Assembly (NCBI RefSeq): GCF_007988805.1
Contig: NZ_BJUV01000012.1
Coordinates: 1-64,000, forward strand
Reading direction: 5' to 3'
From: Frigoribacterium faeni
Lineage (GTDB): Bacteria > Actinomycetota > Actinomycetes > Actinomycetales > Microbacteriaceae
Length of the DNA stretch: 64,000 nt
This document shows, in pieces, positions 7,241 through 20,880 of the stretch (position 1 is the stretch's first letter; each line of letters begins with the position of its first letter). A program made the position numbers and the translations under genes. Under the pieces are notes generated by a model. The model was not told the origin of the DNA and made no database searches. It was given only the letters and a program-made list of their open reading frames with translations.

Positions 7241-7851
7241 CGTCCGGCCTCCGCCCGCAGGGTGTCGTAGTAGGCGCGCGCGGCGTCCCAGGTCGGCAGC
7301 AGGCCCGCCTCGGCGGCCTCGGCCAGCGTCGGGGCGTCGGTGTCCTTCGGCGAGAGCAGGAGCTCGCCGGCCTCGTCCGGGAACGCGAGGGCGACCGTCG
7401 CATCGAGCGGGTCGATGCCGTGCTCACGGGTCGGCTGGTAGACGTCGGTCACCAGGTAGCTGACGGTGGCGCCCTCGGTCAGCGCGACGAAGCAGTGGCC
7501 GAGCCCCTCGGAGACGAAGATGGCCCTGCGGTCGACGTCGTCGAGGCGCACGGAGTCCCACTGTCCGAAGGTCGGCGAGCCGACGCGGATGTCGACCACG
7601 AAGTCGAGGACGGCGCCGTGCGTCGCCGTGACGTACTTGGCCTGGCTCGGCGGCACGTCGGCGAAGTGGACGCCGCGCACGGTGCCGCGCTTGGAGACCG
7701 ACGTGTTGGCCTGGCGGAGATCGACCGAGCGGCCGGTGGCCTTCTCGAGCTCGTCGAACCGGTACCACTCGAGGAAGGTCCCTCGATCGTCGTCGAACTG
7801 GCGGGGGGTCACTTCGTACGCGTCGGGGACGCTCAACTCGCGGATCTGCAC
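7237..7851 (-). CDS. rmlC: dTDP-4-dehydrorhamnose 3,5-epimerase
   Basis: The third step of dTDP-L-rhamnose synthesis, epimerising C3 and C5 of the 4-keto sugar. It is 204 residues, a little longer than the usual 180-200. The cupin signature TVRGVHFA carries the catalytic His62, and YLVTDVYQP is the usual second active-site strand. It starts with GTG at 7851, only 7 bases after a TAGACT -10 box, so the mRNA is probably leaderless. It heads the rmlC-rmlA-CgeB-type glycosyltransferase operon. Confidence 0.95.
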
Positions 7852-17921: not shown

Positions 17922-18572
17922 GTGTTCAAGACGATGAGCCGATGGCTGCGCGCCGTGTCGCGGGCCCACCGCCTGGACGACCGTCTCACGGCGCTCGAGG
18001 CCGCGGTCCGACAGGCCGAGGCCCGAGCCGCCGGGCCCCGTCGTCCTCGCCCGGCGTACGTCGAGATCGGCTCCGGCGCGAAGATCGGCGACCAGGTCGC
18101 GTTCTTCGGAACCGACCGCGCTCGCGTGGTCCTGGGCGCCTCGACGCGGGTCCTCGACGGCACGCGGATCTTCGGCCCGGCCTCCGTCGGCGCGGGGACG
18201 TTCCTCAACCGCGACGTCTACATCCGGCCTCGGACGACCATCGGCGTCGACGTGTCGGTCGGGCCCTTCGCCCGGTTCGTCACCGAGACGCACGACGTCG
18301 GCCCCTCCGACAACCGCACGGGCGCCGGCCGCACCGAGCCGATCGTGATCGGCGACGGGTGCTGGATCGGAGCCGACGTCACCGTGCTCGGCGGTGTCAC
18401 GGTCGGGCCCGGCAGCGTCGTCGCGGCGGGCAGCGTCGTGATCCGCGACGTGCCGCCGAACTCGCTCGTCGCCGGCGTGCCGGCCCGTGTCATCCGGGCG
18501 CTCGACGGCCCGGACGAGAGCGCGGGTCCCGAGGGCGCATCACCCGCCCGGGGCGATCAGCGCCCGGAGTAG
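17922..18572 (+). CDS. Hexapeptide-repeat (left-handed beta-helix) acyltransferase
   Basis: A protein of 216 residues. A short, basic, partly helical N-terminus is followed by repeated [LIV]-G-x-x-x turns (VEIGSGAKIG, VLGASTRVLDG, VGAGTFLNRDVYIRP, IGVDVSVGPFARF) that build the left-handed beta-helix. It then has the closing pattern of the xenobiotic/maltose acetyltransferase group: IGDGCWIGADVTVLGGVTVG, VVAAGSVVIRDVPPNSLVAG and VPARVIR. The likely catalytic His is in the FVTETHDVG loop. It probably O-acetylates a sugar of the local glycan. Its 3' end overlaps the next minus-strand gene by 16 bases. Confidence 0.88.
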   Translation: MFKTMSRWLRAVSRAHRLDDRLTALEAAVRQAEARAAGPRRPRPAYVEIGSGAKIGDQVAFFGTDRARVVLGASTRVLDGTRIFGPASVGAGTFLNRDVYIRPRTTIGVDVSVGPFARFVTETHDVGPSDNRTGAGRTEPIVIGDGCWIGADVTVLGGVTVGPGSVVAAGSVVIRDVPPNSLVAGVPARVIRALDGPDESAGPEGASPARGDQRPE

Positions 18573-18787
18573 TCCGCCGACTGCTTCACGGCCGTCTTCG
18601 GCACGGACATCGAGCTCAGCACGTTGTAGAACCCCACGCTGTTGACCTCCCGGTAGGTCACGCCGATCGACTTCAGCGACGAGACCATGGCGGACGTCGA
18701 GAGGTGGCGGAGCGTGCGGACGTCGACGAGGCAGGTGAAGCCGCGGCCGACGCCGCTGAGCGAATCGGTGCATCGGAGGATGATCAT
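18557..18787 (-). CDS. Small protein, stand-alone relative of the M15 peptidase C-terminal domain
   Basis: A protein of 76 residues that starts with ATG at 18787 behind an agaggaa ribosome binding site. It is 47 bases downstream of the M15 peptidase gene and on the same strand, so the two are probably co-transcribed. Nearly the whole protein aligns without gaps to the last 75 residues of that peptidase. I count about 32 identities, including L-R-x-T, VR-LRHLST, Y-EVN, FYNV and S-SVP. It has no signal peptide or membrane helix. I do not recognise the domain. Possible roles are a regulator or inhibitor of the peptidase, or a wall-binding module lacking its own export signal. Confidence 0.75.
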   Translation of the reverse strand: MIILRCTDSLSGVGRGFTCLVDVRTLRHLSTSAMVSSLKSIGVTYREVNSVGFYNVLSSMSVPKTAVKQSADYSGR

Positions 18788-18834
18788 GGGTTGTTCCTCT
18801 GGTGGTGGGACGGTGAGCAGGCGGGCCGGTTCGG

Positions 18835-19737
18835 TCAGCGACGCCAGTAGTTCGAATCGTTCGTGAGCGCCGCGAGCGGCACGGACAGCGAGGCCATGAC
18901 GTTGTAGAACACGCTGGCGTTGACCTCGAAGTACGGGGTGGAGATCACACGCATCGAGTTGATCATGTCGATCGTCGACAGGTGCCGGAGGCTGCGCACC
19001 CCGAGCAGAGCCGTGTAGCCGGCCGGCATGTTCCCGACGGCCTGCGTGCTGCGGAGGACGACGACGTCGCCGCTGCCGACCTTGGGATTCGCCGTCGCCG
19101 ACGATCCGACCCAGGCGCCGACGTAGTCGAAGTGCCACGGCTCGGGACGGGAGAAGCCGTTGCCGGTGGGCGTCCAGCCGTACGACGGCCCGTTGGCGTC
19201 CATCCAGCGCTTGGCCGTGGTGCCCGCCGTCTCGACGCCGGAGCCGAAGTCGCACGAGATGGCCCAGCCGTGGTTGGACGTGCCGGGGTAGGCGGCGAGG
19301 TTGCCGGTGCCGTTCTGGTAGCGGTTCCAGTAGTCGACCTGGCGCGCGTAGGTGCGGTAGCCCTCCGTGATGACGAGGGGGCGTCCGACGGCACGGGAGA
19401 ACGCCAGGCTCATCGAGAGGTACTGCCTCGCGGCGTCCTCTCGGAGGTACCCCGATCCGGCGACGGTCGAGACGACGGGGGTGAGGGCCGAGACCGGGAT
19501 CTTGCCGTTCGCGTAGCCGCCCCACGACGAGGCCTGCGCGGCGGCCAGAGCCTGCGCGATGGTCGCGACGCCGTTCGAGGTCTCGCCGAGCGAGGTGGCG
19601 GCCGAGGCGGGCAGGGCCTGGGCGCCGGCGAGCGCCACTCCCCCGGCGGCCGCCGCGGCGAAGGTCAGCACGCGTCGGCGGTCGACGGATCGGGAGGCGG
19701 CGGGGGCAGCCTCGGCGAGGGCGTCGCGAATGTCCAT
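18835..19737 (-). CDS. Tat-exported M15 (VanY-like) peptidase with unusual C-terminal domain
   Basis: A protein of 300 residues. The N-terminus has a twin-arginine signal (DRRRVLTF near residues 19-26, then an Ala-rich core ending about residue 47). The M15B peptidase core is complete: GYRTYARQ at 127-134, TSNHGWAISCDFG with zinc ligands His156 and Asp163, and EPWHFDYV with His202. Such enzymes cut D-Ala-D-Ala or related peptidoglycan bonds. Residues 226-300 are a separate domain that also occurs alone in the next gene. The ATG at 19737 begins the signal peptide. Location outside the membrane is inferred from the signal. Confidence 0.88.
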   Translation of the reverse strand: MDIRDALAEAAPAASRSVDRRRVLTFAAAAAGGVALAGAQALPASAATSLGETSNGVATIAQALAAAQASSWGGYANGKIPVSALTPVVSTVAGSGYLREDAARQYLSMSLAFSRAVGRPLVITEGYRTYARQVDYWNRYQNGTGNLAAYPGTSNHGWAISCDFGSGVETAGTTAKRWMDANGPSYGWTPTGNGFSRPEPWHFDYVGAWVGSSATANPKVGSGDVVVLRSTQAVGNMPAGYTALLGVRSLRHLSTIDMINSMRVISTPYFEVNASVFYNVMASLSVPLAALTNDSNYWRR

Positions 19738-19893: not shown

Positions 19894-20880
19894 GTGAAAA
19901 TCCTCGTCACCGGCGGCGCCGGCTTCATCGGCTCGAACTTCGTCCGACGCACCCTCGAAGACGCCTACCCGGGCCTCGAAGGCGCCGAGGTGGTCGTGCT
20001 CGACGCCTTGACCTACTCGGGCAACGAGGCGAACCTCGCCTCCGTCGCCGACTCCCCGCGCTACACCTTCGTCCAGGGCGACATCCGCGACGGCGCCCTG
20101 CTCGACCGGCTCTTCCCCGAGGTCGACGCCGTCGTCCACTTCGCCGCCGAGTCGCACGTCGACCGCTCGGTCCGGGACGCCTCGATCTTCGTCGAGACCA
20201 ACGTGCTCGGCACGCAGCAGCTGCTCGACGCCGCGCTCCGGAACGACCTGAAGCGCTTCGTCCACGTCTCGACGGACGAGGTCTACGGCTCGATCGCCGA
20301 GGGCTCGTGGGCGGAGGACCGCCCCCTCGAGCCGAACTCGCCCTACTCGGCGTCGAAGGCCGGCAGCGACCTGCTCGCCCGCAGCTACCACCGCACGCAC
20401 GGCCTCGACGTCTCCATCACGCGCTGCAGCAACAACTACGGGCCCTTCCACTTCCCCGAGAAGGTCATCCCCCTCTTCGTCACGAACCTCATCGACGACC
20501 AGCACGTCCCCCTCTACGGCGAGGGGAACAACATCCGCGACTGGCTGCACGTCGACGACCACACCCGCGGCATCGCCATGGTGCTCGTGGGCGGCCGCGC
20601 CGGCGAGATCTACAACATCGGCGGCGGCACCGAGCTGACCAACAAGGAGCTCACCGGGATGCTGCTCGAGTCGACCGGCAAGGACTGGTCGTACGTCGAC
20701 CGGGTCCAGGACCGTCTCGGGCACGACCTCCGCTACTCGGTCGACATCTCGAAGATCCGCGAGGAGCTCGGCTACGAGCCGCTCGTCCCCTTCGAGAAGG
20801 GCCTGGCCGAGGTCGTGCAGTGGTACCGCGACAACCGCGAGTGGTGGGAGCCCCTCAAAGAGCGCGCGGCTCTCTCGTGA
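19894..20880 (+). CDS. rmlB: dTDP-glucose 4,6-dehydratase
   Basis: The second step of dTDP-L-rhamnose synthesis: it removes water from dTDP-glucose to give the 4-keto-6-deoxy sugar, using bound NAD. At 328 residues it has the usual length. The Rossmann start is GGAGFIG (residues 7-13). The catalytic triad region is STDEVYG (Thr127-Asp128-Glu129) with Tyr151 and Lys155 in SPYSASK. RCSNNYGP and LYGEGNNIRDWLHVDDH are also typical. GTG at 19894 has aaggaa upstream. The rmlD start overlaps its stop. Confidence 0.97.
   Translation: MKILVTGGAGFIGSNFVRRTLEDAYPGLEGAEVVVLDALTYSGNEANLASVADSPRYTFVQGDIRDGALLDRLFPEVDAVVHFAAESHVDRSVRDASIFVETNVLGTQQLLDAALRNDLKRFVHVSTDEVYGSIAEGSWAEDRPLEPNSPYSASKAGSDLLARSYHRTHGLDVSITRCSNNYGPFHFPEKVIPLFVTNLIDDQHVPLYGEGNNIRDWLHVDDHTRGIAMVLVGGRAGEIYNIGGGTELTNKELTGMLLESTGKDWSYVDRVQDRLGHDLRYSVDISKIREELGYEPLVPFEKGLAEVVQWYRDNREWWEPLKERAALS

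Follow-up and report, generated by a model that had tools for sequence, protein, structure and literature searches.

The window analysed here comprises the first 64,000 nucleotides (nt) of contig NZ_BJUV01000012.1 of Frigoribacterium faeni, a soil and plant bacterium. On its minus strand, the gene of a peptidase of the M15 (VanY) family, with the signature of twin-arginine translocation (Tat), is followed by a small gene whose 76-residue product resembles the C-terminal domain of the peptidase. An earlier note, made from the sequence alone, had described the two as copies of one module. Comparison with related genomes and phages led us to a reading in which the pair may encode a wall hydrolase made of two polypeptides, as in certain phage lysins. 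The elements of the locus are the following (positions in the window; G and L numbers in the text are our handles for genomes and loci).

18835..19737, minus strand: gene of the Tat-type M15 (VanY) peptidase, 300 amino acids (translation; Pfam VanY match)
19597..19737, minus strand: peptidase residues 1-47, twin-arginine signal by motif (RR 20-21, A-x-A near 44-46)
19123..19524, minus strand: peptidase residues 72-205, catalytic domain (VanY match)
19249..19278, minus strand: peptidase S154-D163 (SNHGWAISCD), expected zinc-ligand motif (H156 and D163 invariant)
19132..19143, minus strand: peptidase E199-H202 (EPWH), expected catalytic/zinc motif (E199 and H202 invariant)
19066..19122, minus strand: peptidase residues 206-224, linker, with no Shine-Dalgarno start codon at the domain boundary
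18838..19065, minus strand: peptidase residues 225-300, C-terminal wall-binding-type domain, copy 1 (alignment, secondary structure)
18795..18800, minus strand: AGAGGA upstream of the small gene, ribosome-binding-site-like, weak (scored 4 nt)
18557..18787, minus strand: small gene, free 76-residue domain, copy 2, no signal peptide (translation, conservation, selection)
18770..18772, minus strand: Cys6 codon of the small protein, specific to the small copy together with Cys19
18731..18733, minus strand: Cys19 codon of the small protein, specific to the small copy together with Cys6
19894..20880, plus strand: RmlB-like dTDP-glucose dehydratase gene (open reading frame, label by eye), divergent neighbour, context only

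Residues 225-300 of the peptidase and residues 1-76 of the small protein align by BLASTP without gaps, with 32 of 76 positions identical and 52 of 76 positive (E 6e-20, one single comparison). The gapless alignment, the count of about 32 identities, the motif clusters and the coordinates given in the earlier note were thus right. A six-frame search of the whole genome with the small protein, at E values up to 10, returned only the protein itself (2.6e-45) and the C-terminus of the peptidase (1.3e-15). Because this search gives just these two copies, and because two copies recur in 14 of 16 Frigoribacterium genomes (see below), the likeness is far beyond chance: the two are paralogues and the module is a duplicated one, as had been claimed. 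The Pfam VanY model recognises the peptidase at residues 97-207 (44.6 bits, cut-off 25; E 1.6e-11). H156, D163, E199 and H202 are invariant across all 13 aligned orthologues; we take the first two to be zinc ligands and the other two to be catalytic or zinc residues.

The domain itself, which the earlier note did not recognise, matched nothing above threshold in Pfam, PHROGs, NCBIfam, PADLOC or the PDB sequences. Searches with the small protein stayed below threshold in the family libraries (Pfam E 0.013, PHROGs 0.41, NCBIfam 0.082), found nothing in PADLOC and gave a best E value of 0.99 among PDB sequences; with the domain profile, the best PDB sequence was immunoglobulin mu (E 0.34). AlphaFold2 modelled the small protein with a mean predicted local distance difference test (pLDDT) score of 95, with strands at 2-6, 18-22, 25-28, 44-48 and 72-74 and helices at 32-40 and 50-59. 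Although the model of the full-length peptidase is poor overall (mean pLDDT 52), its C-terminal elements (225-230, 242-246, 249-252, 256-264, 269-272, 274-283 and 296-298) match those of the small protein to within one residue once 224 is subtracted, so that the two copies agree in predicted secondary structure as well.

Among 398 genomes drawn from the family, the domain was found with confidence only in Frigoribacterium (9 of 10 genomes) and in the genus g34 (4 of 4, one copy each), where it forms the C-terminus of a twin-arginine M23 peptidase in all four genomes (Pfam M23 matched for one of the four). Matches in G233 (E 0.007) and G238 (E 0.005) were set aside as chance, the proteins being unrelated by eye, and marginal ones in G074 and G219 were rejected for a stop inside. 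The draw of 396 genomes from the order gave no match beyond the genome of the window itself. At one of the M23 loci (L102, genome G165), a 130-residue frame lies beside the M23 gene at 7301-7693 on the minus strand and is barstar-like by eye.

The N-terminus of the peptidase carries what we take, by its motif, to be a Tat signal: R20 and R21 are invariant in 13 of 13 orthologues and are followed by a hydrophobic stretch and an A-x-A-like site. The NCBIfam Tat model scored the peptidase below its cut-off (E 7.3), and the Tat export stated in the earlier note stands as an assignment by motif. Two TatC genes are present in the genome of the window. The absence of an export signal from the small copy was confirmed. 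In 9 of the 14 genomes with the pair, the stretch from the upstream in-frame stop to the conserved ATG of the small gene holds no ATG, GTG or TTG, so a signal peptide is impossible there; in the remaining five, upstream in-frame starts exist on paper.

Conservation was followed in 16 Frigoribacterium genomes searched with the profile of the domain. Exactly two copies occur in 14 of them and none in the other two; the latter also lack the peptidase, apart from a weak M15 match in G382 (L079) that is interrupted by one TGA. The pair is therefore present as both genes or neither, and in 14 of 14 cases the small gene lies downstream of the peptidase gene, at a distance of 15-106 nt. The gap measures 106 nt in G260 (L008), where it holds a run of GTC/GTCGTC repeats, 102 nt in G035 (L010) and 15-62 nt elsewhere. 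Relatives of the peptidase were found at 11 named loci, ten of them in Frigoribacterium (58-81% identical) and one, at 36%, in a Galactobacter bin.

A tree was built from 13 distinct pairs and the four M23 copies; G399 was omitted because its small copy is the same as the one in G357. The peptidase copies fall on one side of a branch with support 97/95 and the small copies on the other, where they do not resolve as a single group (the root is a midpoint only). Since the peptidase copies stand on one side of a supported branch, the tree fits one duplication older than the sampled strains, and a recent tandem duplication in each strain was rejected. Between the window genome (G000) and G330, the small genes differ by 21 synonymous and 5 non-synonymous changes (4, 1 and 21 at the first, second and third codon positions), a ratio of non-synonymous to synonymous rates (dN/dS) of 0.06. 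Other close pairs gave 0.06 (G167/G218), 0.04 (G167/G110), 0.10 (G218/G110) and 0.14 (G357/G401). Ratios rise to 1.2 between distant strains, where synonymous sites are probably saturated, and the case for translation is for this reason based on the close pairs. Altogether, these values indicate that the small gene is translated and under purifying selection in close pairs; together with the conserved start, they speak against an artefact of translation, an outcome that the earlier note had allowed for.

Similarity to phage proteins was apparent in both parts of the peptidase. Outside the genus, the closest relative that we found for the catalytic domain is encoded by a lysin-like gene of an IMG/VR viral contig (L025), with 66% identity over residues 77-207. 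Relatives in other genera of the family draw occur in nine genomes at E 1e-20 or better, with 39-59% identity; the best-scoring one is 50% identical over residues 44-209. A tblastn search with the peptidase matched 197 phage records, of which 114 were from Microbacterium phages, 54 from Synechococcus phages, 22 from Curtobacterium phages and a few from others. As to the domain, hhalign aligned its profile with a profile of nine Microbacterium-phage lysin C-termini at a local probability of 90 (E 1.5e-6) and a global one of 66 (E 7.2e-6), each a single comparison. Taken singly, the C-termini of the Jovita and PermaG lysins gave z values of 5.8 and 5.3, their scores being reached by 1 and 0 of 300 shuffles. 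The profiles thus link the small domain to the C-termini of Microbacterium-phage endolysins, and the bacterium seems, from these comparisons, to have adopted a virus-style wall-cutting enzyme.

More direct searches yielded less. With the small protein, tblastn found no match in 50,697 phage records at E values up to 10, and the M23 copy of the domain gave five records at E 1 or worse, which were rejected. Scanning viral contigs with the Jovita lysin confirmed nothing; with the M23 protein it returned one locus, matched through the catalytic part. Lysins of some Curtobacterium podophages (e.g. Fairywren) were not counted: the tblastn match of the peptidase spans their C-terminal domain, and the domain profile misses it. 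In two small Curtobacterium phages, Fairywren (L026 2498-3837) and Trapezoid (L030 1495-2835), annotated M15 and M23 endolysin genes adjoin. No phage genes occur among the ten scanned neighbours of the pair, which, with its distribution in the genus, led us to reject a prophage remnant.

Phage lysin genes often yield two products, the full enzyme and a C-terminal part made from an internal start (PMC9430671). Such starts were predicted for 51.5% of 3,780 endolysins of phages of Gram-positive bacteria, as against 15.2% of portal genes, and two-product complexes with ratios of 1:3, 2:2 and 1:5 are known (PMC9430671); complexes with free binding domains were solved for CTP1L (PMC4777826) and LysIME-EF1 (PMC7098653). 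We examined the junction between catalytic and C-terminal parts in 16 phage or viral M15 lysins, picked from the matches and partly near-copies of one another. Eleven have an ATG preceded by a Shine-Dalgarno sequence of 5-7 nt at this place, nine of them with AAGGAGG, and a twelfth has a GTG. All nine such Microbacterium-phage lysins (L031, L069-L074, L078 and L027) combine AAGGAGG with a junction ATG, and no second product is annotated in the regions viewed.

A similar signal occurs in the M23 genes of g34. In 4 of 4 genomes, a Shine-Dalgarno sequence and an ATG stand exactly at the start of the domain, and this ATG is where the Frigoribacterium small protein begins. The junction reads GAC CTC GAA AGG CTC GAC ATG, with CAC replacing the second CTC in one of the genomes. 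The preceding linker is unconserved, yet the D, L, E, R and D codons are identical in all four genomes; over the gene as a whole, 63 of 154 conserved columns have identical codons. The rare arginine codon AGG is used at the junction in 4 of 4 and in only 2 of the other 64 arginines. Within these four related genomes, the junction looks to be under nucleotide selection for ribosome binding. The Frigoribacterium peptidases were scanned from 25 codons before the boundary to 7 after it with a Shine-Dalgarno threshold of 5 nt. No start codon with such a site was found in any of the 14, and in 12 there was none with even a 4-nt site. By these sequence signals, g34 would use an internal start and has no separate gene; Frigoribacterium has the separate gene and no recognisable internal start. 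In another Microbacteriaceae genus, a second chromosomal Tat-type M15 peptidase (L089, genome G150, minus strand; twin-arginine motif by eye) has a different C-terminal part and CCGGAGGACGACATG at the junction, and may also yield a free C-terminal product.

The two copies are diverging quickly. Over 13 genomes, mean pairwise identity is 80% for the catalytic domain, 48% for the domain copy of the peptidase and 55% for the small protein. After correction for the catalytic domain, the divergence of one copy correlates with that of the other (partial r 0.64, permutation p 0.0002, 13 genomes). Cys6 and Cys19 are both present in 14 of 14 small copies and in no peptidase copy together. Near the C-terminus, a position with S, A or T in the small copies is W or F in all 13 distinct peptidase copies.

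The neighbourhood is that of a glycan locus, as the earlier note had stated: the ten scanned neighbours include glycosyltransferases, a pyruvyltransferase, an SGNH-domain acyltransferase, a GDSL hydrolase, a hexapeptide transferase, RmlD and a LytR-CpsA-Psr protein. At 8 of 10 named Frigoribacterium loci, an RmlB-like frame lies within the 17-kb locus. A variable wall glycan made next door is the natural candidate for the ligand of the domain. The further link that had been drawn between the pair and polymer attachment is guilt by location.

Comparison of the small-protein model with known structures by Foldseek placed LysIME-EF1 at ranks 2 and 4 and the Lys170 binding domain at rank 3 of the PDB matches, non-significantly (E 0.9-1.2, TMq 0.48-0.59); seven PlyCB chains stood within the first 50 rows. 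The likeness of the predicted fold to known multimeric lysin binding domains is suggestive only. In the viral library, the best match was a protein of 111 residues from Microbacterium phage Min1 (E 0.007, TMq 0.74). Two Min1 proteins have this length, and gp60 is the likelier one. It was the best of 22 of Min1's 77 proteins by hhalign, yet with E 0.011 and a probability of 4, and its sequence score was reached by 77 of 300 shuffles. The gp60 gene lies in the lysis region behind gp59, which by eye resembles a cysteine-type lysin catalytic domain, though Pfam finds nothing in it. With its strong ribosome site, GAGGAGGACGACATG, gp60 may form a two-gene lysin with gp59 (L099 35913-36694); this arrangement is only a lead.

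The explanation that we favour, and to which we give an even chance of being correct, is that the pair is a domesticated wall hydrolase of the two-polypeptide phage-lysin type, whose free subunit comes from a duplicated gene, oligomerises with the peptidase and is exported with it through Tat. The large polypeptide would be the M15 metallopeptidase with its Tat signal and a C-terminal domain of wall-binding type. The small one would be a free copy of that domain with a gene of its own, the duplicated gene replacing an internal start as the source. By oligomerising with the C-terminal domain of the peptidase, the free domains would create a ring or cluster of high avidity, a multivalent base for binding that bears one or a few catalytic arms, as in LysIME-EF1, Lys170, CTP1L and PlyC. 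The ring of LysIME-EF1 consists of four binding domains, and its full activity depends on tetramerisation (PMC7098653).

Because the small protein has no signal and the peptidase has a Tat signal, assembly would take place in the cytoplasm and the folded complex would leave through Tat on the signal of its large subunit, the small one being a hitchhiker. Tat moves folded complexes, and partners without a signal travel with subunits that bear one (PMC4273604). Outside, the complex would tether the peptidase to the wall glycan of the cell itself. The two products of a phage lysin gene would pass through the holin lesion; the M23 enzymes of g34, also Tat-type, would meet the same need for export. 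More tentatively, Microbacteriaceae may have converted heteromeric phage lysins to their own use as exported wall hydrolases, with the free subunit as a folded Tat hitchhiker and with two genetic solutions, the internal start in the M23 genes of g34 and the duplicated, diverged gene in Frigoribacterium. The earlier note had offered a wall-binding module whose second copy works inside the cell; wall binding appears the better of its two options, and the second copy is more probably outside with the enzyme.

Several observations weigh against the two-polypeptide hydrolase. Foldseek gave no significant PDB hit (all E values above 0.7), the first in rank being an unrelated hydrolase (E 0.74), and profile kinship with the LysIME-EF1 binding domain was looked for in the sequence and not found. 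Four of the 16 phage or viral M15 lysins have no junction start. The G330 and G403 peptidases do have a start at or near the boundary with a 4-nt match. The small genes' own Shine-Dalgarno sequences reach 5 nt or more in only 5 of 14 cases (4 nt in 8, none in 1), so weak sites are evidently used in Frigoribacterium. Correlated divergence could be explained by lineage rate or a shared ligand without contact. By its conserved cysteines and different C-terminus, the small copy is no simple substitute for the copy in the peptidase; perhaps the copies are specialised as ring and arm subunits, or the cysteines form a disulfide in an exported small protein. Finally, in both of the g34 genomes inspected (2 of the 4), the M23 gene sits outside a glycan locus (labels by eye), which makes the location only suggestive as a clue to the ligand.

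Alternatively, the small protein would remain in the cytoplasm and act there as a guard or dedicated Tat chaperone, engaging the peptidase's C-terminal domain ahead of export. Dedicated Tat chaperones exist, and such a role would agree with the adjacent gene, the copy-specific residues and the nine genomes in which a signal is impossible. However, in phages, which do not use Tat, the related enzyme genes are themselves the predicted source of the free domain; the conserved cysteine pair would equally suit an exported protein; and the chaperone would be a paralogue of its cargo's own domain, of which we know no case. We consider this role unlikely. The cytoplasmic guard of the earlier note was not supported: the shared module is non-catalytic and the substrate of the enzyme extracytoplasmic, and the comparison points instead to a free lysin binding subunit.

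The old single duplication (branch support 97/95), the copy-specific residues and the glycan genes nearby would also be expected of a cytoplasmic protein, such as a sensor serving the polymer locus, that binds the same glycan as the peptidase, or precursors of it, and never joins the enzyme; strict adjacency in 14 of 14 pairs, presence as both or neither and the correlated divergence of the copies make this decidedly improbable. Most improbable is a bacteriolysin, exported to kill competitors whose walls are targeted by the fast-evolving domain (48% against 80% mean identity in the catalytic part), with the small protein shielding the producer by occupying or masking the target, since that protein lacks a signal that would take it to the producer's wall, and the gene is placed in a glycan locus of the cell itself and occurs in most of the genus.

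On the two-polypeptide hydrolase, an unnamed small domain gains a probable role and mechanism, and the two-polypeptide lysin design, familiar from phage lysis, would also occur among the wall enzymes that a bacterium exports for itself. If the two proteins are indeed co-exported, the hydrolase would travel through Tat already assembled on its binding base and would represent a new class of Tat cargo; this would account for the choice of Tat rather than Sec, and the same reason could apply to further hydrolases of Tat type in Actinobacteria. Strain-specific wall glycans might, in addition, be probed with the fast-evolving domain. In a search of open-access papers, we found no report of a wall hydrolase whose binding subunit is a Tat hitchhiker, and none of an exported, chromosomally encoded wall hydrolase whose binding domain has a second copy in a gene of its own.

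Each feature of the pair has a counterpart in known systems. Two-polypeptide endolysins (Lys170, LysIME-EF1, CTP1L, CD27L, LysP7951) likewise join a catalytic domain to a C-terminal binding domain and add free copies of the latter, and in proteins with relatives of the present domain an internal start stands at the corresponding position. They are encoded by one gene, whereas here the enzyme is chromosomal and Tat-type, the free copy has a separate, diverged gene and no internal start was recognised; moreover, the complex is predicted, the fold match is weak, no sequence kinship was found and the ten scanned neighbours form no phage lysis cassette. Microbacterium-phage M15 endolysins (Jovita, IndyLu, Typher, PermaG and kin) share the VanY-type catalytic domain (Jovita), a related C-terminal domain and a free domain, there predicted from an internal start. 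Unlike the Frigoribacterium pair, they are single lysis genes beside membrane-protein or holin genes and lack an export signal. In PlyC of streptococcal phage C1 (PlyCA and PlyCB), the free binding subunit has its own gene beside the enzyme gene (PMC7098653). This arrangement resembles the present one, and PlyCB is among the PDB fold matches. The PlyC enzyme subunit is not known to carry a PlyCB-fold copy, in contrast to the Frigoribacterium enzyme, which keeps its own copy of the domain. The Tat hitchhikers HybOC and PaoABC have a Tat signal on one subunit and none on the partner, and assemble before export (PMC4273604), as we propose here; unlike the peptidase, they are redox enzymes. In conclusion, the parts are of known kinds and their combination appears to be new.

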